NCBI RefSeq assembly: GCF_030297015.1
Contig: NZ_AP028056.1
Coordinates: forward strand, 1,374,939 to 1,438,938
Direction of reading: 5' to 3'
Source: Brooklawnia propionicigenes
GTDB lineage: Bacteria > Actinomycetota > Actinomycetes > Propionibacteriales > Propionibacteriaceae
DNA length: 64,000 nt
This document shows positions 12,384 through 64,000 of this stretch, one piece after another (position 1 is the first letter of the stretch; each line of letters opens with the position of its first letter). Made by a program: the position numbers and the translations under genes. The notes below the pieces were generated by a model. The model searched no databases. It saw nothing but the letters and a program-made list of their open reading frames with translations, and was not told the DNA's origin.

Positions 12384-13118
12384 GTGAGCGAAGAACCTGC
12401 GACCCCCTCAACTGATGAGGTGGCCGGCTACGACACGGTCGATCAAGCGGCCGTGCCTGAGGCCGAATCCGAGCCCGTGGTCGTGCTCGAGGACTACGGG
12501 CCCCCACCTTCCCTGACCATCACGCTGGTCCTCCTGGTCGCACTGCTGGTCTCGGCACTGGTGCTGCTGGTGGCCGGGCTGTCACTGGCGGCCAAGCTGG
12601 ACGCGGCGTCTGCAGTCACCGTAACGGCGATTGCCCTGGGCGGGAGCCTGCTGATCTGGCATCTGCGGGCTCTGATCTTCGGCAGTGGGCGCCGGACCGC
12701 GATGATCAGCAGGTGGCCGTGGGTCGATCTGGTGGTGATCGCCGCTTTCGGTACGGCTACCGGATTCGCGCTGTTCGACATGCTCACCGGGGTGCGCAGC
12801 GCGGCACGCGTCGCGATGCTGTGCGCCGGCTTCGTGGGACTGGTGGCGACCCTGGTGGCGTTCGTGCGAGACACCGACCTGCACGATCGCGGGCTGTTCG
12901 CCGTCCAGCCTCCTGCCGCGGCGCAGCCGGCCGGCGAACCGGAGCCCGAACCCGAACCCGAGGTCTTCTTCGATCCGACCGAGGGTGCCGATCAACTGCG
13001 TCCGCGGGGTGCTTGGCCGCAGCCGCGCCGGGGCACCGCGGCCGATGCGTCCTTGTGGGACGAGCCCGAGTTCGAGGTCCAGGAGCCGCCCCGCCGGGCC
13101 CGCCGTGCCGCCGAATAG
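12384..13118 (+). CDS. Hypothetical four-helix membrane protein
   Basis: A 244-aa protein I do not recognise. The first 45 residues are acidic and hydrophilic. Four predicted helices follow at about 50-78, 83-107, 118-142 and 148-166. The C-terminal third is cytoplasmic-like, with a run of alternating Pro-Glu around residue 195 and an Arg-rich tail (RRARRAAE). GTG 12384 is chosen over the upstream ATG at 12333 because AGGGAGG lies 7 bases before it. It is probably cotranscribed with the DUF4352-like gene and is convergent with the helicase gene, 5 bases apart. Confidence 0.62.
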   Translation: MSEEPATPSTDEVAGYDTVDQAAVPEAESEPVVVLEDYGPPPSLTITLVLLVALLVSALVLLVAGLSLAAKLDAASAVTVTAIALGGSLLIWHLRALIFGSGRRTAMISRWPWVDLVVIAAFGTATGFALFDMLTGVRSAARVAMLCAGFVGLVATLVAFVRDTDLHDRGLFAVQPPAAAQPAGEPEPEPEPEVFFDPTEGADQLRPRGAWPQPRRGTAADASLWDEPEFEVQEPPRRARRAAE

Positions 13119-13123
13119 GGCGC

Positions 13124-14884
13124 TCAGCGGCCGAGCCAACGTTTGATGGTGCGGATCCGGGCATCCACCTGGTCCAAGCTGGCCTGGCCGAGCGGCGGAC
13201 CGCCGCATTCACGGCGAAGCCCCGCGTGCACATGCGAATGCGGAGTGCCCTTGAGCCTCGCGTACTGGGCGACCAGTGAGTTGAGTTCCTTGCGTTTGTC
13301 GGCGAGCTGGCGGTGCAGCGCCTGTTCGGGCGGCACCTTGTCCCGGCGCATCGTCCGCTCATGCCGTACGGTCTGCCGGCGCTGCCGCTCCTCGAGCAGG
13401 TGAGCCACCTGATCCGGCTCCAGCAAGCCGGGTAGACCCAGATAGTCCGCCTCGTCGTCGCTTGTCGGGGCGGCATGCATGCCGTAGGCCTGGGAGTCGA
13501 ACAGAACGTGATCGAAGATCGCCTCCGATGAGACCGCCTCGTACTCGTTGAGCAGATCGTCGGATGCCTGCTCCTGCTTGTTCGCCCGCTCCATCAGGGC
13601 TTCGGTCTCGGCCCAGATGTCGACCGCGTCCTGGTGTTTGGGGCGGCCCAGCACATGATCGCGCTGACGCTCGATGGAGGCGGCGTGGGCAAGGATGATC
13701 GGCACGGTAGGCAGGAAGACGGTGGCCAGCTCACCGCGCCGGCGGGCCCGCACGAAGCGTCCGACCGCCTGGGCGAAGAACAACGGGGTCGAGGTGGAGG
13801 TCGCGTAGACCCCGACCGCCAGCCGCGGCACGTCGACGCCCTCGGAGACCATCCGCACCGCGACCATCCAACGTGACTCATCCGCCGCGAACTGCTCGAT
13901 CCTGCCCGACGAGCTGGCGTCGTCCGACAACACCAGGGTCGGCTTCACGCCGCCGCAGATCTGCTCCAGCAGACGGGCATATGCCCTTGCGGTCCGCTGG
14001 TTCGCGGCGATCACCAGGCCTCCGGCGTCCGGCAGGTGGCGGCGCACCTCGCTCAGCCGGCGGTCCGCAGCACGCAGCACCGAGCCGATCCACTCGCCCT
14101 TCGGGTCCAAGGCGGTGCGCCACGCCTGGGAGGTGAGATCCTTGGTCATCACCTCACCGAGGTTGGCCGCGATCTCATCGCCGCTGGTGGTGCGCCAGCG
14201 CATCGGTCCGCCGTAGTTCATGAAGACGATCGGACGCACGACATGGTCTCGCAAGGCCTCGGCGTAGCCATAGACATAGTCGGCCCGGCTGATCAGCGAG
14301 CCGTCCGGCTGCTCGTCGTAGCTGACGAAGGGGATCGGGGTCTCGTCGCTGCGGAAGGGGGTTCCGGTGAGCGCCAGCCTGCGGGTGGCATGCCCGAACG
14401 CGTCCCGGATCGCATCGCCCCAGCTGCGCGAATCACCCGCGTGGTGAATCTCGTCGAAGATCACCAGCGTGGGGGTGGCCAGCGTCACCGCCTCGTAGTG
14501 CCAGGCGCGCACGGCCACGCCTGCGTAGGTGACCGCGACACCATCGAACTCGCGCGAGCGCCCACGGCGGGTGCCGGTGCCCGACGGATCGAGCTGAATA
14601 CCCACCTTGGCGGCTGCGTCCGCCCATTGGGTCTTCAGGTGCTCGGTCGGCACGACGACGATGATCCGGCTGACGGTCTTGGCGTTGAGCAGTTCCGCGG
14701 CGACGCGCAGCGCGAAGGTCGTCTTGCCTGCTCCCGGTGTGGCCACAGCCAGGAAGTCGCGGGGATCGCGGTCGCGATAGATCTGCAGCGCCGCGGCCTG
14801 CCAGGCACGCAGCCGCGCGGACGTACCCCACGGAGCGCGTTGCGGGAAGGCCGGCGAGAGCCGGTCGAAGGCTGCGCCGCTCAT
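13124..14884 (-). CDS. SF2 DEAD/DEAH-box helicase
   Basis: A superfamily 2 helicase of 586 aa of the type common in actinobacteria. Motif I is GAGKT at 51-55, motif II DEIH at 144-147, motif III LTGTPFR at about 172-178, and motif VI lies in QAVGRFVRARRRGE in the second RecA-like domain. The C-terminal 150 residues are charged and helical (EERQRRQTVRHERTMRRDK) and may form a coiled coil. The protein is probably cytoplasmic and acts on DNA or RNA; the substrate is unknown. The ATG lies in a stretch with no strong ribosome-binding site. It is distinct from, and not fused like, the helicase-sigma gene 1.8 kb away. Confidence 0.82.
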   Translation of the reverse strand: MSGAAFDRLSPAFPQRAPWGTSARLRAWQAAALQIYRDRDPRDFLAVATPGAGKTTFALRVAAELLNAKTVSRIIVVVPTEHLKTQWADAAAKVGIQLDPSGTGTRRGRSREFDGVAVTYAGVAVRAWHYEAVTLATPTLVIFDEIHHAGDSRSWGDAIRDAFGHATRRLALTGTPFRSDETPIPFVSYDEQPDGSLISRADYVYGYAEALRDHVVRPIVFMNYGGPMRWRTTSGDEIAANLGEVMTKDLTSQAWRTALDPKGEWIGSVLRAADRRLSEVRRHLPDAGGLVIAANQRTARAYARLLEQICGGVKPTLVLSDDASSSGRIEQFAADESRWMVAVRMVSEGVDVPRLAVGVYATSTSTPLFFAQAVGRFVRARRRGELATVFLPTVPIILAHAASIERQRDHVLGRPKHQDAVDIWAETEALMERANKQEQASDDLLNEYEAVSSEAIFDHVLFDSQAYGMHAAPTSDDEADYLGLPGLLEPDQVAHLLEERQRRQTVRHERTMRRDKVPPEQALHRQLADKRKELNSLVAQYARLKGTPHSHVHAGLRRECGGPPLGQASLDQVDARIRTIKRWLGR

Positions 14885-16660: not shown

Positions 16661-19177
16661 GTGCTTCGCATCGCAGGCGGCGTGCTGCAACCTGCCGGGC
16701 CGGCACGCGCGGAGATCTCGCTGTACGACTGGCAGCGCGAAGCCCTCGGTGCCTGGCGGCGGCAGAACCGGTCAGGCATGGTGCAAGCCGTGACCGGAGC
16801 GGGAAAGACCCGAGTCGGTGCAGCGGCGGTCGCCGAGGCGCTGGACGACGGCATGCGCGCGGTGGTGATCGTCCCCAGCCTTGTTCTGGTGCAGCAATGG
16901 CTGGCCACCCTGAGGGATCTGTTGCCCGGTGCGCGCGCCAGCGATGACATCCGGAGTCCTCTGGCCTGGCAGGTGCTCGTCATGACAGTGCAGTCGGCGT
17001 ACCGCAAGCCCGCGCTCATGCGGGGCGAAGAAGGGCTCCTGGTCGCCGATGAATGCCACCGCTACGGCGCGCAGGCATTCGCCCTCGCGCTGCGTCCCGA
17101 GTACCCGCGGCGGCTCGGACTCTCGGCGACTGTCGCCCGCGATGATGACGGCGATCGCATTCTGCGGAGCTATTTCGGTGACATCTGCTTCGATCTGGAC
17201 TACCCGCGGGCGGCCCGCGACCAGCTCATCGCGCCGTTCCGGATGGCCTTCGCGGCCGTGCCGCTGGAAGATACCGAGCGGGCTCGCTATGCAGAGATCG
17301 AAGAGGACCTGTACAAGGCGCGACACAGGCTGATCAAGCACTACGGCGTTCCCGCAGAGCCGATCGGTGAATTCCTCAAGGCGGTATCGCTGCTCGCCGA
17401 GGACCACACACTCGACGGCGGCGGCGGTCTGGCCCGGCACTACATGGCCCGGTTCTCCGACCGCCGGAAGTTGCTTGCGGGCACCCGGATGAAACTCCTG
17501 GCTCTCGCGGCCCTCACGCCGAGCATTCATGAATCATCCGGGACCATCGTCTTCACCCAGACCGTGGAGGCCAGCCGCCAGGTCGCCGAAGTGCTCGAGA
17601 CCACCGGCTGCACCGCGGCGGCGATCCACTCCGAGATGTCCAACGACCAGCGCGAAGCCCGACTCGATCTTTTTCGTGACAGATCACTCCAGGCCATCTC
17701 AGCGCCAAGGGTGCTGGACGAGGGCGTCGACGTGCCGGAGGCCGATCTGGGCATCGTCCTGGCCACCAACCGCAGCCGCCGTCAGATGATCCAACGGCTG
17801 GGACGCGTCCTTCGTCGCAAGCCGGGCAAGGAGGCGCGGTTCGTCGTCCTCTACGCCAAGCAGACGGTGGAAGACCCCTTCACTCAAGATCATCTTCCCG
17901 ATTTCTACGAGATCGCGAGGCCGGCGGCCACTGCGACGGAGTCCTTCGATCTTGAGCTCGCCAGCGAGGTGCCGCGGCTCCTGGAGTTTCTGGCGACCGG
18001 CGATCCCGGCCAGCCGCAGATCGTCAGCAGTCCGCGCGAGGACAGCTCGGATGCTGCGACCAGCGCGCCGGGCGCTGTTGCCCGGCGGCGCGGTAGAACG
18101 AGACCGGGACAGGCTCCGCCCGATGCGGGTCCGGCGGACTCGTGGTTCATGCCACTCAGCGACGACATCGTCCGCGACTACCTGGTGGCCATCGGACGGT
18201 ATCGGTTGTTGGAGGCTGAGGACGAGGTCCGGCTGGGCCGCCAGATCGAGTCGGGGCTGTATGCTCAGCACCTCTTGCAGGTGGGCGATGTCCGCTTCCC
18301 CCGGGCTGTGCTGGAACGCATCGCCCACCAGGGCGCACAAGCACGAGAGCTGATGATCACCAGCAATCTGCGCTTGGTCGTTTCGATCGCCAAGCGCTAC
18401 ACGGAGCAGGGTCTTGACCTCATCGACGTGATCCAGGAAGGCAATCTCGGCCTCATTCGTGCGGTCGAGAAGTTCGACTACCGCAGGGGATTCAAGTTTT
18501 CCACCTACGCCTCCTGGTGGATCAAGCAGGCCATCACCAGGGGACTGGCCGATCAGGGCCGCCTGATCCGGCTCCCGGTGCATTTCGTCGAGAAAGCCAG
18601 GACGGTCGATCGGCTACGCGGCAAAGAGAACCTCGGCTGGCCCGAGTTCGCACGACGCTATCCCGGCGGGCTGCCCGACCACGAGATCAGCGCGGACGAA
18701 CTGCAGCGCATGGCGCGGCTGATGCGACCAGTTCTGAGCATCCACGCCATCGTCGACGACGGCGACGAGGACTGCGTCGTGATGTCCCCGCTCGTCGGTG
18801 AAGTGGACGGTTCGTCCGAACAGGTGCTCGAGCGTCTGTCGAGATCAGAACAGCTGTCGCTGATGCTGAATCCGCTCGAACGGGAGGATCCCCGGCTTGC
18901 GTTCGTGCTTCGCTGCCGCTTCGGGCTGCAGACCGGCGAGGACGAGACCCTGGAAACCGTCGGCGCCCGGCTCGGCATCACCCGGGAGCGCGTCCGGCAA
19001 TTGGAAAAGGTCGCTCTCAACAGGTGCCTGGAGTTCGCCGAGTCGGCCGGGCTTGTTCGGGACAGTGATCAGACCGCCGAGGCCGGATATCGTGCTCGAA
19101 GGGGCTTCTTGGATACCGCCGTGCAGACCACCAACTACGTGCCCCGGCGGGCAGAACCACTCGCCGCCGGTAGCTGA
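16661..19177 (+). CDS. SF2 helicase fused to a sigma-70 factor
   Basis: An 838-aa single frame joining two normally separate proteins. Residues about 18-420 are an SF2 helicase: motif I TGAGKT 45-50, motif II DECH 130-133, motif III LSAT 154-157, and motif [11 protein letters not shown] 378-386. Residues about 421-500 are a Pro/Ala/Arg-rich linker. Residues about 500-795 are a group 1/2-like sigma-70. Its region 1.2 is around [21 protein letters not shown], region 2 runs from [15 protein letters not shown] through [19 protein letters not shown] to [13 protein letters not shown], region 3 is short, and region 4.2 ends [12 protein letters not shown]. Both halves keep their key residues. The start is GTG with a G-rich stretch upstream. 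A helicase that also selects promoters is a plausible inference; no function is known to me. The SOS-boxed HNH gene lies directly downstream. Confidence 0.88.
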
Positions 19178-59847: not shown

Positions 59848-62088
59848 TCAGCCAGAACGCCCGGTCCTGGTCGGTTCCTCCGGCTCCGGGGCCTCGGTCG
59901 TCTCGGGAGCCGTGGTCTCCGGACCAGTCGGTTCGGGCTCCTCGGTGGTCTCGACAGGACGCGTGGTCTCCGGGGCCGATGTCTCCTCGGGCTCGGTCGT
60001 CTCAGTCGGCTGCGGGGCTGCTGAGGTGGCGCTGGTCACCGGCAACGTGTTACGCACCGTCGGCTGGATATTGGCCGGCGGATCGAAGTCGACGAACGGC
60101 AGGCCATCGGTGGCCACTGCCATGTACGAATTCCACACATCGGTCGGGTAGCCGGCGCCGTAGAACGCGCCGCTGCCCGGACGTGCGTAGACGTCCAGGT
60201 TCTGGTTTCCGTCGTCACCGGCCACCATCACCACTGCTGTGGCGATCTGCTTGGTGTAGCCGCACAGCCAGGCCGAACGGGTGATCTGCTTGGTGGCGCC
60301 GTCTTGGCCCACCGCGATCCCCTCGGTTCCGGTCTTGCCCGCCACATCGCGTCCGTCGACCGCACTGACCGTCGAGCCGGCCACCGCGCCCGACAGCGCA
60401 TAGCTGAGGTCTTGGGCGACCGGTGTCTCGATCGCTTGCACGCCCTCGGAATTGCCGCTGTAGACCACGTTTCCGGACGCGTCGCGCACCTCGGCAACGA
60501 TGTGGGTTTCGTTGCGCACTCCGTTGCCGGCCAGTGTGGCGTAGCCGGTCGCGTTGTCCAGTGCGGTGACCTCGCCCTCGCCCAGCACCATGCGGTTCAC
60601 CTGGGGTGCCCAGCTGTCGTCCTCAGGGATGCCCGCATCATTGGCGGCTCGGATGAGTTCTTCGGTGCCGTTCGGGATGCGTGCGATCAGGTCAACGAAC
60701 GAGGTATTGATCGAGTCCTGGATCGCCTTCTGCAGTGTGACCGTGCCGTAGTTGTAGGCGGAGTCATTCTGGACGGGTTCGGTGTCGCCCTCCGGGGTGT
60801 AGGTGGACCCGCGCAGCGTCGAACTCAGCCCGAAGCCGTTGCGCAGACCCGCGACAGCGCCCCAGACCTTGAAAGTGGACGCGGCGTAGCGCGGTGTGGT
60901 CGCCCAGTTGCGCGAGTTCGAGACGAAGTCGGAACCGCCGTACAAAGCCAGAATCCCGCCGGTGCCGACATCGATCGAAGCCAGGCCGACGTGCAGATCG
61001 TCAGCGGACGGCTTGACCCGGTTGCCTTCGTCGTCGGTGATGTAGTAGGCGTTGTCAACAGCCCTTTGCACGGTGGACTCGGCGGCGTCGATGGCAGCCT
61101 GCTGCATCCGGGCGTCCACTGTGGTGATGATCGTCAGGCCACCGCCGTTGATCTGCTCCGGGGTGAAGCCCTGGGCCTCGAGCTCGCTGGTGGCCATCTC
61201 GATCAGGAACCCATTCGGGCCGCCGTAGACATCGCTCACCGGGATGTCCGGGAACTCGGGAAGCTGGTTGTAGTACTGGTCGTGTTGTTCCTGGGTGATG
61301 GATCCTATCGGGTCGAGCATGCCGTCGATCACGTAGTTGTACCGCTGTAGCAGCGCCTGCCTGGCGTTGTCGCCGCTGGCGGGATCGAGCGTGGACGGCG
61401 TGTTGACCATCGCGGCCAGCGCTGCGGACTGGTCGATCGTCAGGTCTGCGGCGCTCACGTTGAAGTAGGCCTGAGCTGCCGCTTCGATGCCGTACGCGCC
61501 GCGTCCGAAGTAGATGGTGTTGAGGTAGCCCTCGAGCACCTCTTCCTTCGACGCGGTGTTGTCCATCTTGATGGCCAACGCCAGTTCGGTGAACTTGCGC
61601 GAGAAGGTCTGGTCGCTGGTGAGATACCGGATCTTGATGTACTGCTGAGTGATCGTCGAGCCGCCGCCGCTGATCTCACGATTGGTCAGGATGCCCCAGA
61701 ATGCGCGACCCATGCCCTTGAGGTCGACGCCCTGGTTCGTCCAGAAGGTGCGATCCTCGGCAGCAACCACTGCATCCTTGATCGACTGCGGCATGTCGTC
61801 GTAGGAGATGTTCGTGCGGTTCTGGATGGCCAGCGAGCCGAGCTCAGAGGTGCCATCCCGGAAGTAGAGCCGGGTCGTCTGAGTGGTGAAGTCGGCGTTG
61901 GGATCGGGCAGCTCAGTCCTCTCGTAGAAGACAATGCCGATGACGGCGGCGATCAGGAGCAACGCCAGTACGACGATGCCCGCAATCTTGGCCACACGGC
62001 CAAGCGGTCCGCCCTTGTCCTTCTTCGCGGAGTTGCCGGATTTACCCGGCTTTGCCGCACGCTTCGGGCTTTTTGCCTTCTCAGCCAT
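59848..62088 (-). CDS. ponA: Class A penicillin-binding protein (PonA)
   Basis: A 746-aa bifunctional peptidoglycan synthase. Residues 1-33 are Lys-rich and cytoplasmic, with one membrane helix at about 34-54. The GT51 glycosyltransferase domain has catalytic Glu111 in EDRTFWTNQGVD and GGSTITQQY. The transpeptidase domain has Ser404-x-x-Lys (STFK), SIN 459-461 and KTG 585-587. The tail after about 690 is a Thr/Glu/Pro-rich extracellular linker of variable repeats, common in actinobacterial PonA and a likely O-mannosylation target. ATG 62088 has GAGG upstream and overlaps the DUF5318 gene by 8 bases. Confidence 0.93.
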   Translation of the reverse strand: MAEKAKSPKRAAKPGKSGNSAKKDKGGPLGRVAKIAGIVVLALLLIAAVIGIVFYERTELPDPNADFTTQTTRLYFRDGTSELGSLAIQNRTNISYDDMPQSIKDAVVAAEDRTFWTNQGVDLKGMGRAFWGILTNREISGGGSTITQQYIKIRYLTSDQTFSRKFTELALAIKMDNTASKEEVLEGYLNTIYFGRGAYGIEAAAQAYFNVSAADLTIDQSAALAAMVNTPSTLDPASGDNARQALLQRYNYVIDGMLDPIGSITQEQHDQYYNQLPEFPDIPVSDVYGGPNGFLIEMATSELEAQGFTPEQINGGGLTIITTVDARMQQAAIDAAESTVQRAVDNAYYITDDEGNRVKPSADDLHVGLASIDVGTGGILALYGGSDFVSNSRNWATTPRYAASTFKVWGAVAGLRNGFGLSSTLRGSTYTPEGDTEPVQNDSAYNYGTVTLQKAIQDSINTSFVDLIARIPNGTEELIRAANDAGIPEDDSWAPQVNRMVLGEGEVTALDNATGYATLAGNGVRNETHIVAEVRDASGNVVYSGNSEGVQAIETPVAQDLSYALSGAVAGSTVSAVDGRDVAGKTGTEGIAVGQDGATKQITRSAWLCGYTKQIATAVVMVAGDDGNQNLDVYARPGSGAFYGAGYPTDVWNSYMAVATDGLPFVDFDPPANIQPTVRNTLPVTSATSAAPQPTETTEPEETSAPETTRPVETTEEPEPTGPETTAPETTEAPEPEEPTRTGRSG

Positions 62089-62515
62089 AGATGTCCTCAA
62101 CTGTCTGCTGTCTGCGAGGCGGACGGCGACGCTGGCCGTCGCCCAACACGAACGTCTCTATTAGATGGTTCCAGCCGCAATCAGGGCAAATCTCCACGAC
62201 ACGCACCTTGAACTCACCGAATTCGTCCTGCATCTGCGCGAGCTCCTCGTCCGACTTGATGCGGCCCGAGAACTGCCCGAGTTGATCGCCGAAAACGTAG
62301 TTGAGCAGCGTCAGCCGGTCGGAGACGCAAACCGGGCAGTCGCGTCCCGCCAACGAGCCATGATGCAGCGCCGATCGGACGAGGAGGGGGTCCGCGTCAC
62401 ACGGGTCGAGGCCAGCCAGCAGGGCTTGTGGATGACGCATCGCTTCGAGGGTCGCCCGCCGTTGCAGGGCATGGCTCACCTGCTCACGCTGGGTGCGGAA
62501 GCGCTGCGAAGCCAT
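62081..62515 (-). CDS. DUF5318-family protein
   Basis: A 144-aa protein matching DUF5318, the small gene upstream of ponA in mycobacteria (Rv0049-like). RREQVSHAL-like and LLAGLDPCDADPLLVRSA segments precede a zinc-binding-like CPVC (DCPVC) and a second pair in VEICPDCGWNHL. A four-Cys metal site is likely. ATG 62515 is preferred; TAGGCT lies about 9 bases upstream without a Shine-Dalgarno site, which fits a leaderless operon promoter. It is the first gene of the DUF5318-ponA-GT87-PIG-V operon. Confidence 0.82.
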   Translation of the reverse strand: MASQRFRTQREQVSHALQRRATLEAMRHPQALLAGLDPCDADPLLVRSALHHGSLAGRDCPVCVSDRLTLLNYVFGDQLGQFSGRIKSDEELAQMQDEFGEFKVRVVEICPDCGWNHLIETFVLGDGQRRRPPRRQQTVEDIYG

Positions 62516-62622
62516 GCGCACAAGCCTAAACCGGTAAGTCAACCAGGCCGGTTCGGCCGTGTTGATGCCGGGCGGCAGCGGCTAGTAGGATGAGCGAGCC
62601 CGCGTGGGTTCACGCAGGTGTC

Positions 62623-62695
62623 GGGGCATTAGCTCAGCTGGTAGAGCGACGGCTTTGCAAGCCGTAGGTCAGGGGTTCGAGCCCCCTATGCTCCA
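62623..62695 (+). tRNA. tRNA-Ala (anticodon TGC)
   Basis: A 73-nt cloverleaf. Acceptor stem GGGGCAT pairs with ATGCTCC (62688-62694) with one G-U, discriminator A at 62695. The D arm is GCTCAGCTGGTAGAGC, the anticodon arm CGGCTTTGCAAGCCG with TGC, and the T arm has GGTTCGAGCC. CCA is not encoded. The sequence 3' of it belongs to a mobile element whose recombinase reading frame runs antisense through the tRNA. Confidence 0.95.
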
Positions 62696-64000
62696 CCCAA
62701 TGTGTCTTACGGGAACACGCGACATCGGAAGATGTGGAGTGTTCCCGTTCGGCTTCCTTGCCTCTGGTCGCCTCGCGGACGATCGTTGCGAATGGCTCTG
62801 CGAGGCGTGGACGTAGCTGCTCGTCTTCGGTGATCTCCAGCCGCGTGTAAAACGCTTGGTTCGCGAGCCTCCTGCTGCCGTCGTCAGAGCGCGCGTAGGC
62901 CCGGTGCGCGTCGGTCAGCAGCCTCAGGCTGTCGTGGAGGAACGCGCGCCCACCGGTGTGTTGTTCGTCCTGCTGGGCGAGGCGCTGCTCGATGTCGGCC
63001 AGGCCGGTCCGGATGCGGTCTTGGTGCCGCTTGAGCGTCGGGAGGTCGATGGCGTCGGCGAAGTGCGCGCCCAGCAGCTTGTCGCTCTCGGCCTCCAGAC
63101 GTGCCCGGTTCGCGGTGAGGTCGGCGAACTCCTGATCCCGCCCGACACTGCGCTTGTCGAAGGCAGCGTCGACCTCGGCGGCGAGGTGCCGATAGTCGTC
63201 TTCGCTGATCGTGATCGAGGCGTATGAGTCCTCGACCAGCCGTTCCGCAACCTGCACGGGAACCGCGCGCCGAGTGCAACTCGTCTTCTTCGCGGCTCGA
63301 CCCGAGCAGACGAAGTAGGCGTAGGTCGTGCCGCGCGGGTTGGTCGCGAAGTCCAGCAGCATCCGCGACCCGCACGATCCGCAGTGCAGCAGGCCTTTCA
63401 GGTGGTGGGCGTGGGTGACGTGTCGCGTCATCCTGGCGTTGCGCGCCTTCAGCAGCGATTGCACCTGGTCAAACAGCGCGGGCTCCACCAGTGGCTTGTG
63501 CGCGCCGGGATGCAGCGCTCCCTTGTAGCGGATCACTCCGGCGTAGTACGGGTTCGTGAGTAGCTTGTAGAGGGTGTTCTTCCCCAGCGGCTTCGATGGC
63601 CGTTTCGGCGACGGCACCGTCGTCAATCCCCGGGCGGTGAGTTCACGCAACAGCCCGGTGACCGAGGTCTCGCCCCAGGCGTAGGTCTCGAACGCCCACC
63701 GGATCAACGGTGCGCGCTCGGGATCGACCTCGACCGTTCGAACCTCGCGGCCGTGCTCGTCGGTGCGACGGACGTTGAGGTAGCCGACCGGGGCGCGCAT
63801 CGGGGTTCCGCCCTGCGCGAGCTTCTGGGTGAGGCCTTTGGTGACTTCGGTGGCGAGGTTGCGGCTGTAGAACTCCGCGATGGACGACATGATTCCGTGG
63901 ACCAGCATCCCCGATGGGGTTTGGTCGATCGACTCCGTCGCCGATACCAAGGTGACGCCTGCGGCGAGAAGGGCTTCGTGAATCCTCACGTCATCAGCGC
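62634..64000 (-). CDS. Large serine recombinase, C-terminal part (runs off window)
   Basis: The frame is open from the window edge to a TGA at 62634. The visible 455 residues begin within the resolvase domain (HEALLAAGVTLVSATESID, then FYSRNLATEVTKG). The recombinase domain follows (GYLNVRR.., LLTNPYYAGVIRYKG), then a zinc ribbon (LLHCGSCGSRM..YFVCSG..SCTRR) and a coiled coil. The catalytic Ser lies beyond the window. The last about 20 residues (HRGLEPLTYGLQSRRSTS) are encoded by the antisense of the tRNA-Ala gene, so the tRNA 3' part is presumably the attachment site of an integrated element. Confidence 0.88.
   Translation of the reverse strand, partial: ADDVRIHEALLAAGVTLVSATESIDQTPSGMLVHGIMSSIAEFYSRNLATEVTKGLTQKLAQGGTPMRAPVGYLNVRRTDEHGREVRTVEVDPERAPLIRWAFETYAWGETSVTGLLRELTARGLTTVPSPKRPSKPLGKNTLYKLLTNPYYAGVIRYKGALHPGAHKPLVEPALFDQVQSLLKARNARMTRHVTHAHHLKGLLHCGSCGSRMLLDFATNPRGTTYAYFVCSGRAAKKTSCTRRAVPVQVAERLVEDSYASITISEDDYRHLAAEVDAAFDKRSVGRDQEFADLTANRARLEAESDKLLGAHFADAIDLPTLKRHQDRIRTGLADIEQRLAQQDEQHTGGRAFLHDSLRLLTDAHRAYARSDDGSRRLANQAFYTRLEITEDEQLRPRLAEPFATIVREATRGKEAEREHSTSSDVACSRKTHWVEHRGLEPLTYGLQSRRSTS

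Follow-up and report, generated by a model that had tools for sequence, protein, structure and literature searches.

A large serine recombinase gene of Brooklawnia propionicigenes that reads into a tRNA gene and is very likely split by the integration of its own element

How does the gene of an integrase come to end inside the tRNA gene that it targets, and what becomes of this end when the element leaves? The question is raised by the last bases of the window, as we call the whole stretch of 64,000 nt of Brooklawnia propionicigenes DNA that was analyzed (positions 1374939-1438938 of a 3.21-Mb single-contig genome), where the gene of a large serine recombinase (LSR) reads 64 bases of tRNA-Ala(TGC) antisense. 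A preliminary description of this DNA had proposed that the recombinase frame enters the 3' end of the tRNA, reads its antisense strand and stops inside it, that an integrated island begins at the window edge, and that the C-terminus may differ between the integrated and excised states. From the comparisons presented here, we consider it very likely that the window ends in the attL site of a 7,568-bp element whose attP lies inside its own LSR gene, and that this gene is split on integration. The boundaries could be traced in the sequences exactly in two other elements and by homology in the window's element. The sequences compared also show the split of the gene, an open frame when its halves are joined, purifying selection on the orphan half and the in-frame reuse of this half by stacked neighbours.

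On the minus strand, the LSR frame enters the window at its edge, stops at 62634 and takes its C-terminal HRGLEPLTYGLQSRRSTS from the tRNA antisense (Table 1), in agreement with the preliminary description. When the sequence past the window edge is included, the complete LSR counts 561 aa from an ATG (window-equivalent 62634-64319) and presents the Pfam domains Resolvase, Recombinase and Zn_ribbon_recom, in that order. These LSR domains score above the Pfam cut-off in the recombinases P0001, P0002 and P0004, and the zinc ribbon of P0003 scores 25.2 against a cut-off of 25.3. Each of three tRNA-Ala genes of this genome (TGC, CGC and GGC) is entered antisense by an LSR in the same frame, and the two further LSRs, at CGC and GGC, are 52% and 46% identical to the LSR of the window. 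Because these three tRNA-Ala genes and the relatives surveyed below repeat the layout, the reading of the LSR into the tRNA is not due to chance. The constancy of the antisense frame results from the geometry of the tRNA (the distance from the 3' end to the T-loop) and is not by itself a sign of selection.

Table 1. Features at the end of the window (positions of the window).
Feature	Position	Strand	Basis or remark
tRNA-Ala(TGC), host target and attB half, intact when integrated	62623..62697	+	ARAGORN
LSR gene, 3' part; 5' end beyond the window, to window-equivalent 64319	62634..64000	-	
C-terminal tail of the integrated state, from tRNA antisense (EHRGLEPLTYGLQSRRSTS)	62637..62693	-	same type of tail in 63/64 tRNA-borne relatives
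attL core CCACC	62693..62697	.	position by homology with the exact cases; these 5 bp recur at the distal junction
P' arm of attP (ACGGGAACACGCGAC); inverted partner arm 7.6 kb off, at the distal end	62709..62723	.	dyad 19/30
Host flank: 153-aa reading frame adjoining the tRNA	62081..62542	-	homologous DNA beside the same tRNA in element-free relatives

The far end of the element was located outside the window, 7,568 bp away from core to core. The proposal that an integrated island begins at the window edge is supported. The two ends have the 5-bp CCACC in common at the place given by homology, and their longest common word is the 7-bp TGCTCCA, which lies 13 bases further inward and is in phase as well. 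The crossover point is accordingly ambiguous in this element, between CCACC, favored by homology, and the nearby TGCTCCA. Among the genomes compared, no empty-site partner was found for it. An orphan ORF (genome 1444921-1445220, minus strand) starts from the distal junction, whose core lies at 1445199; it is on the same strand as the LSR and encodes a helix-turn-helix (HTH)-like domain. When the ends were joined in silico, a single open frame of 634 aa was obtained, consisting of LSR, linker and HTH (SRKTHWV/GAMEHYGNRRPRVERL...HTH, the slash marking the join). Since the joined ends open as one LSR-linker-HTH frame, attP would lie inside the recombinase gene. As the preliminary description had suggested, the C-terminus differs between the integrated and the joined arrangement; by this reconstruction, the joined ends add an HTH-like domain.

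A second copy of the 3' part of the tRNA, which had also been anticipated, is absent: exact matches to the tRNA 3' half are at most 11 bp long in the 95 kb examined, none of them at the far end of the element, and the two exact cases described below share only 6 and 9 bp at the tRNA 3' end. This bears on the view that the locus is an island of the ordinary type, in which the tRNA 3' end is duplicated and the antisense tail is an artefact of ORF calling. The tRNA target and the orientation of int are typical of such islands; however, the lack of a long tRNA repeat, the short cores of the exact cases and the presence of the other half of the LSR gene at the far end make this view highly improbable, and the two exact cases already contradict it. 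The genes between int and the tail include one for a TetR-type regulator. An Eco57I/N6-type methyltransferase and a BsuBI/PstI-type restriction enzyme form a type II restriction-modification pair, which is carried together with a GmrSD-N protein as cargo (genome 1440416-1444899). Element A of another genome of the species (G002) carries a related restriction-modification pair, as judged by eye, and different genes otherwise.

Two complete sets of att sites were obtained by comparison with natural pre-insertion states. In G002, a 6,966-bp element lies between tRNA-Ala(GGC) and a neighbouring element, and our genome represents the empty site, with the neighbour directly at tRNA-Ala(GGC). In this quartet attB, attL and attR are exact, the core is the 9-bp TCCACATAA, and the joined element contains one intact frame, LSR followed by ...LYVE/AMERCGNRRQRVERLVSAW...LTDTEVDAMRTARAQGISVTALARQFGVHRGTVWARTSPHT. 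The second quartet is given by a 76,286-bp insertion at the tRNA-Ala(CGC) of our genome, with the 6-bp core TCCACC. Its natural pre-insertion state is the contig L074, which matches the joined flanks of our genome at 549/550 bases; L074 is 100% identical over 5,844 bp to the second recombinase copy of our genome (P0004) and lies directly at tRNA-Ala(CGC). The recombinase of the 76-kb insertion (P0002) and the tail at the opposite end of this insertion are in frame when joined. The C-terminus of the second copy differs between these two otherwise identical sequences because a neighbour has integrated. A non-tRNA target for this copy was considered and rejected, its odd tail being the far end of the 76-kb insertion. 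The tail of L126 is 92% identical to that of the second copy and shares its contig with L135, a P0002-like recombinase located at tRNA-Ala(TGC), in agreement with an arrangement like that of the 76-kb insertion. L074 is filed under a Caldisericales MAG, with 5.8 kb at 100% identity to an actinobacterial genome, and has probably been mis-binned.

The tail of the third recombinase of our genome (P0003) was searched for and not found. A synteny break at genome 1461471 was discarded as a distal end; it corresponds to the end of a protein gene, with a separate duplication in G002. There, downstream of tRNA-Ala(TGC) (contig G002:C40), two copies of the 3' end of a protein gene lie about 2.2 kb from each other, an arrangement reminiscent of the att sites of a further element. 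We take the duplicated gene to be a D-2-hydroxyacid dehydrogenase. The arms of the reconstructed attP sites form inverted repeats in three of four reconstructions, with a dyad of 19/30 that is reached by 2-3 of 2000 shuffles (3 of 2000 for the window's element). The dyad was not significant for the 76-kb insertion (1100 of 2000 shuffles).

We then examined the tails across relatives of the recombinase. One scan of genome contigs yielded 522 relatives, and the best 80 of them constitute our survey. Sequence comparison revealed tails of the first HTH family in 19 of these best 80 loci, all on the recombinase strand; among them, L100 is a weak match, L127 is partial and L129 is contiguous with the LSR. 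The phase of the junction was assessed in a blind test on 15 loci with both a tail and a tRNA in view, i.e., 14 survey loci and the window's element (L095, L121 and L130, with a tail and no tRNA in view, were left out, as were L100 and L129). The longest word common to both ends was in phase in 12 of the 15 loci, one of two tied words was in phase in two (L073 and L096) and L127 was out of phase. When the ends were joined from Val codon to Val codon, all 17 recognised loci were open to the HTH end, the phase being imposed by construction. Openness and the shared GTG are not imposed in this way, save in L076, for which an upstream Val was taken. The 17 loci comprise 15 survey loci, our own TGC locus and our second copy, representing about 13 distinct elements; L127 (tail start unrecognised), L129 and L130 (no int-side junction) and L100 were left out. 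The loci are not all independent: L074 is the element of our second copy, and L094, L101 and L108 are close copies.

The orphan tails evolve as coding sequences. Outside the attP arm, 16 tails presented a median dN/dS of 0.28 (range 0.13-0.53; 114/120 pairs, the six others being too alike; L100, L119, L121, L127 and L130 were left out of this set). The pooled pN/pS was 0.36 in frame vs 1.39, 1.35, 1.12, 0.53 and 1.46 in the five other frames. These values indicate purifying selection on the orphan tails, acting in the reading frame that they have when fused to the recombinase. The orphan fragment could also represent a separate small gene, of a regulator for example, that would start in the integrated state at a GTG in the core or at an ATG just after it. 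A GTG is found at the junction in 15/15 survey loci compared, and many tails have an ATG three codons on. Yet several tails lack the ATG (VDSIDHY, VDLTEHY and VGAIGRR), and in four loci an upstream recombinase reads into the fragment in frame. Moreover, the integrated fragment starts at the core after a locus-specific flank, with no conserved upstream sequence and no conserved ribosome site or promoter seen. We therefore regard a separate gene as quite improbable; the simplest reason for the constraint on the tail would be its expression within the fused gene. In L073, L076 and L096, the flank before the tail contains an inverted repeat that resembles, by eye, the terminator of the tRNA itself.

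The fused frame is also encountered where elements are stacked. In three cases (a P0003-type recombinase in G002, L095 and L108), the older recombinase reads in frame into the HTH tail of the newcomer. Their LSRs belong to distinct lineages, as judged by eye, and end in one shared HTH family; the older LSR of L108 is frameshifted further upstream. L129 is a contiguous LSR-HTH gene in which a different LSR is in frame with such a tail, and it may represent either a stack or an intact attP; neither a tRNA nor a further P0001-like recombinase was found within the 21.5 kb examined around it. On another contig of the genus (G005:C269; L063 9324-15887), four orphan HTH tails, all degenerate, follow one another close to tRNA-Ala(TGC), and remnants of recombinases adjoin the tRNA; the region resembles an ancient stack of elements that have since decayed.

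The natural L129 protein (618 aa) was modelled with AlphaFold (mean pLDDT 75.9, pTM 0.33). Foldseek returned serine integrase complexes as the best matches (E 9.4e-20), with a global TM of only 0.20-0.37, and the model is consistent with an LSR fold with long coiled helices. The linker (residues 517-576) is unstructured in the model (pLDDT about 29) and is followed by a three-helix end (residues 583-617; pLDDT 86-92). The tail modelled alone gave a poor result (pLDDT 62), its Pfam HTH matches were below the curated cut-offs, and a PDB profile search with it yielded a weak match to the uncharacterized protein 2lvs (E 0.0026). On this combined evidence we call the end of the tail HTH-like. The swap of C-termini may be incidental: attP would overlap the 3' end of int for the sake of module packing, both forms would act alike, and neither the antisense tail nor the HTH part would have a function in the recombinase. 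In favor of this idea, integration leaves all the LSR domains in place, the linker with attP is disordered in the prediction, and the sequence and length of the antisense tail vary freely with the tRNA. However, the orphan tails, although deprived of their 5' half, are under purifying selection in the fused-gene frame, and the word common to the two ends is in phase in most loci. An incidental swap is quite possible in our view, if somewhat doubtful.

Reading into a tRNA is frequent among the relatives. Of the best 80 of 522, 64 were classed by an automatic test as reading tRNA antisense; L108 brings the total to 65, and the tRNAs targeted by these 65 correspond to six amino acids. For the 64 loci, most targets are tRNA-Ala (TGC 24, GGC 12 and CGC 10), the others being tRNA-Val (TAC 5, CAC 4 and GAC 1), Lys (3), Met (3), Arg (1) and Leu (1). 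The motif G/R-[LFIV]-E-[PL]-x-T, which corresponds to the antisense of the T-arm, is present in 63/64 tRNA-borne relatives of this best-80 set. The remaining 15 of the 80 were inspected by eye. Six stop at a contig end, the motif being present in L069, L082 and L121; L100, L126, L129 and L130 run into HTH-type tails; L124 begins such a tail and then departs from it; L112 has an early stop; L122 is broken beside tRNA-Ala(GGC); and L090 and L114 present the motif without a called tRNA. In L053 and L091, the recombinase frame crosses the antisense of tRNA-Val and tRNA-Cys and continues into tRNA-Gly, forming a multi-tRNA antisense tail. L025 contains two near-identical transposase-like frames (13081-13965 and 17035-17919; 294 aa each, by eye), 4 kb apart, which flank a recombinase fragment.

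Of 396 genomes drawn evenly from the phylum, eight (our own included) matched at E 1e-120, and four of the seven others are at a tRNA in view. Within the genus, the layout at tRNA-Ala(TGC) is patchy among the eight genomes searched. An intact LSR was found there in our genome, and G005 has an LSR at this tRNA on a contig that ends inside the tRNA. Remnants lie beside it in G002 (60 residues), G004, G005 (on another contig) and G007, and only the tRNA itself matched in G001, G003 and G006. The arrangement is thus not fixed in all relatives; such fixation is what the preliminary description would have held against its proposal. L094 and L108 carry the same element (99.6% identity over 7,040 bp) in differently named hosts. 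The element of L101 is ~94% identical to both copies and lies at another tRNA; part of L101 is found in G002:C31. The recombinases of L093 and L102 are identical over their 474 shared residues and diverge at the junction, one being at tRNA-Val(TAC) and the other at tRNA-Ala(TGC). A tree of 68 recombinases implies at least 33 changes of isoacceptor and 15 of amino acid, as a rough count from a tree with long branches and no shuffle control.

We propose the following mechanism for the element of the window. The gene joined end to end would encode 634 aa, in which the LSR core would be followed by a disordered linker, where attP is located, and then by an HTH-like domain at the C-terminus. Recombination with the tRNA 3' end would cut the gene within the linker: the catalytic part would stay at the tRNA, ending in tRNA-antisense codons, and the HTH part would be left at the far end without its 5' half. 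Excision would then restore the full LSR-HTH gene. We infer the existence of the circle, the production of the long protein and a difference in activity between the two forms. Most likely, the HTH form would act in the free state, by binding attP or a promoter or in integration, and the loss of the HTH after integration would limit further recombination for as long as neither excision nor a stacking element brings it back. An excised circle or a free attP was searched for without success: 50,697 records of phages and 72,556 of plasmids gave no match with at least 60% identity, and one attP pattern found no match in viral contigs. The contig L068 was considered as a closed circle and rejected, with no terminal overlap at the lengths tried and no recombinase match.

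Functionally, the layout may represent a control switch, an autoregulator or an incidental arrangement with a conserved tail. A more far-reaching view, held tentatively and with slightly less than even confidence, is that the att reaction edits its own enzyme: the circle would encode LSR-HTH and the integrated element LSR with an antisense tail, the swap would set the direction or the level of recombination, and the in-frame HTH of a stacking newcomer may wake an older recombinase. A stricter version, which we find unlikely, is a directionality switch in which the long form integrates and the short form excises, or the reverse. In its favor, form and state are coupled by the att reaction, and none of the four cargo genes of the window's element that were compared with Pfam was identified as an excisionase. 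Two other elements carry a gene beside int and divergent from it (L025 9041-9757 and G002:C31 249754-250566) for related proteins of 238 and 270 aa (by eye) with a zinc-finger-like cysteine stretch; these are candidates for an accessory or directionality factor. Against a switch of this kind, known serine integrases rely on a separate directionality factor. The family turns the question of how an integrase tells the free from the integrated state into a testable one. The elements concerned are small, some carry restriction-modification genes, and they move between hosts, as the 7-kb element that is 99.6% identical in two of them illustrates.

Compared with PhiC31, Bxb1 and the 4KIS integrase, this family has the same domain order, a similar predicted fold, a short core and a dyad attP; it differs from them by the extra C-terminal HTH-like part past attP and by its tRNA targets. 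Multi-targeting LSRs have been described as a clade marked by DUF4368 and relaxed specificity (PMC10083194), and here too one enzyme cluster uses several target genes; in contrast to that clade as described there, the target genes here encode tRNAs that share their 3' end and T-arm. The term tRNA is absent from the main text of this large survey of LSRs (PMC10083194). The presence of the same LSR core at different tRNA genes suggests that it accepts many tRNA 3' ends, which is of interest for genome tools.

Changes of a protein by integration are known from mycobacteriophage BPs, whose integration-dependent immunity relies on a repressor that is truncated on integration (PMC4557955). As in the BPs system described there, attP lies in a coding sequence and integration yields a shorter C-terminus with a different property; the gene switched in BPs is the repressor (PMC4557955), whereas here it is the recombinase. 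A search of the open-access literature, mostly of titles and abstracts and with the subscription literature mostly outside its scope, revealed no recognised bacterial serine case of a self-splitting integrase.

The closest parallel is found in the archaeal "suicidal" integrases of the SSV, pTN3 and pT26-2 type, which are tyrosine recombinases and exclusively archaeal according to a 2021 review (PMC8371274). In the systems that this review covers, attP is likewise inside the integrase gene, integration splits the gene, many tRNAs are targeted, and related elements can re-supply or recombine parts (PMC8371274). In our family, attP falls within the integrase coding sequence in the two exact quartets, whose joined frames are open. 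Unlike the archaeal enzymes, the family is bacterial and has serine recombinase domains; the archaeal split strands the catalytic domain on one fragment, whereas here the LSR domains stay together and only the HTH-like part is removed. By Pfam domains and the model, the enzyme is thus not a tyrosine recombinase and its core is not broken up. The principle of the suicidal integrase would be extended by this family to bacteria and to the other recombinase superfamily; the family works like the suicidal integrases without being a member of them.
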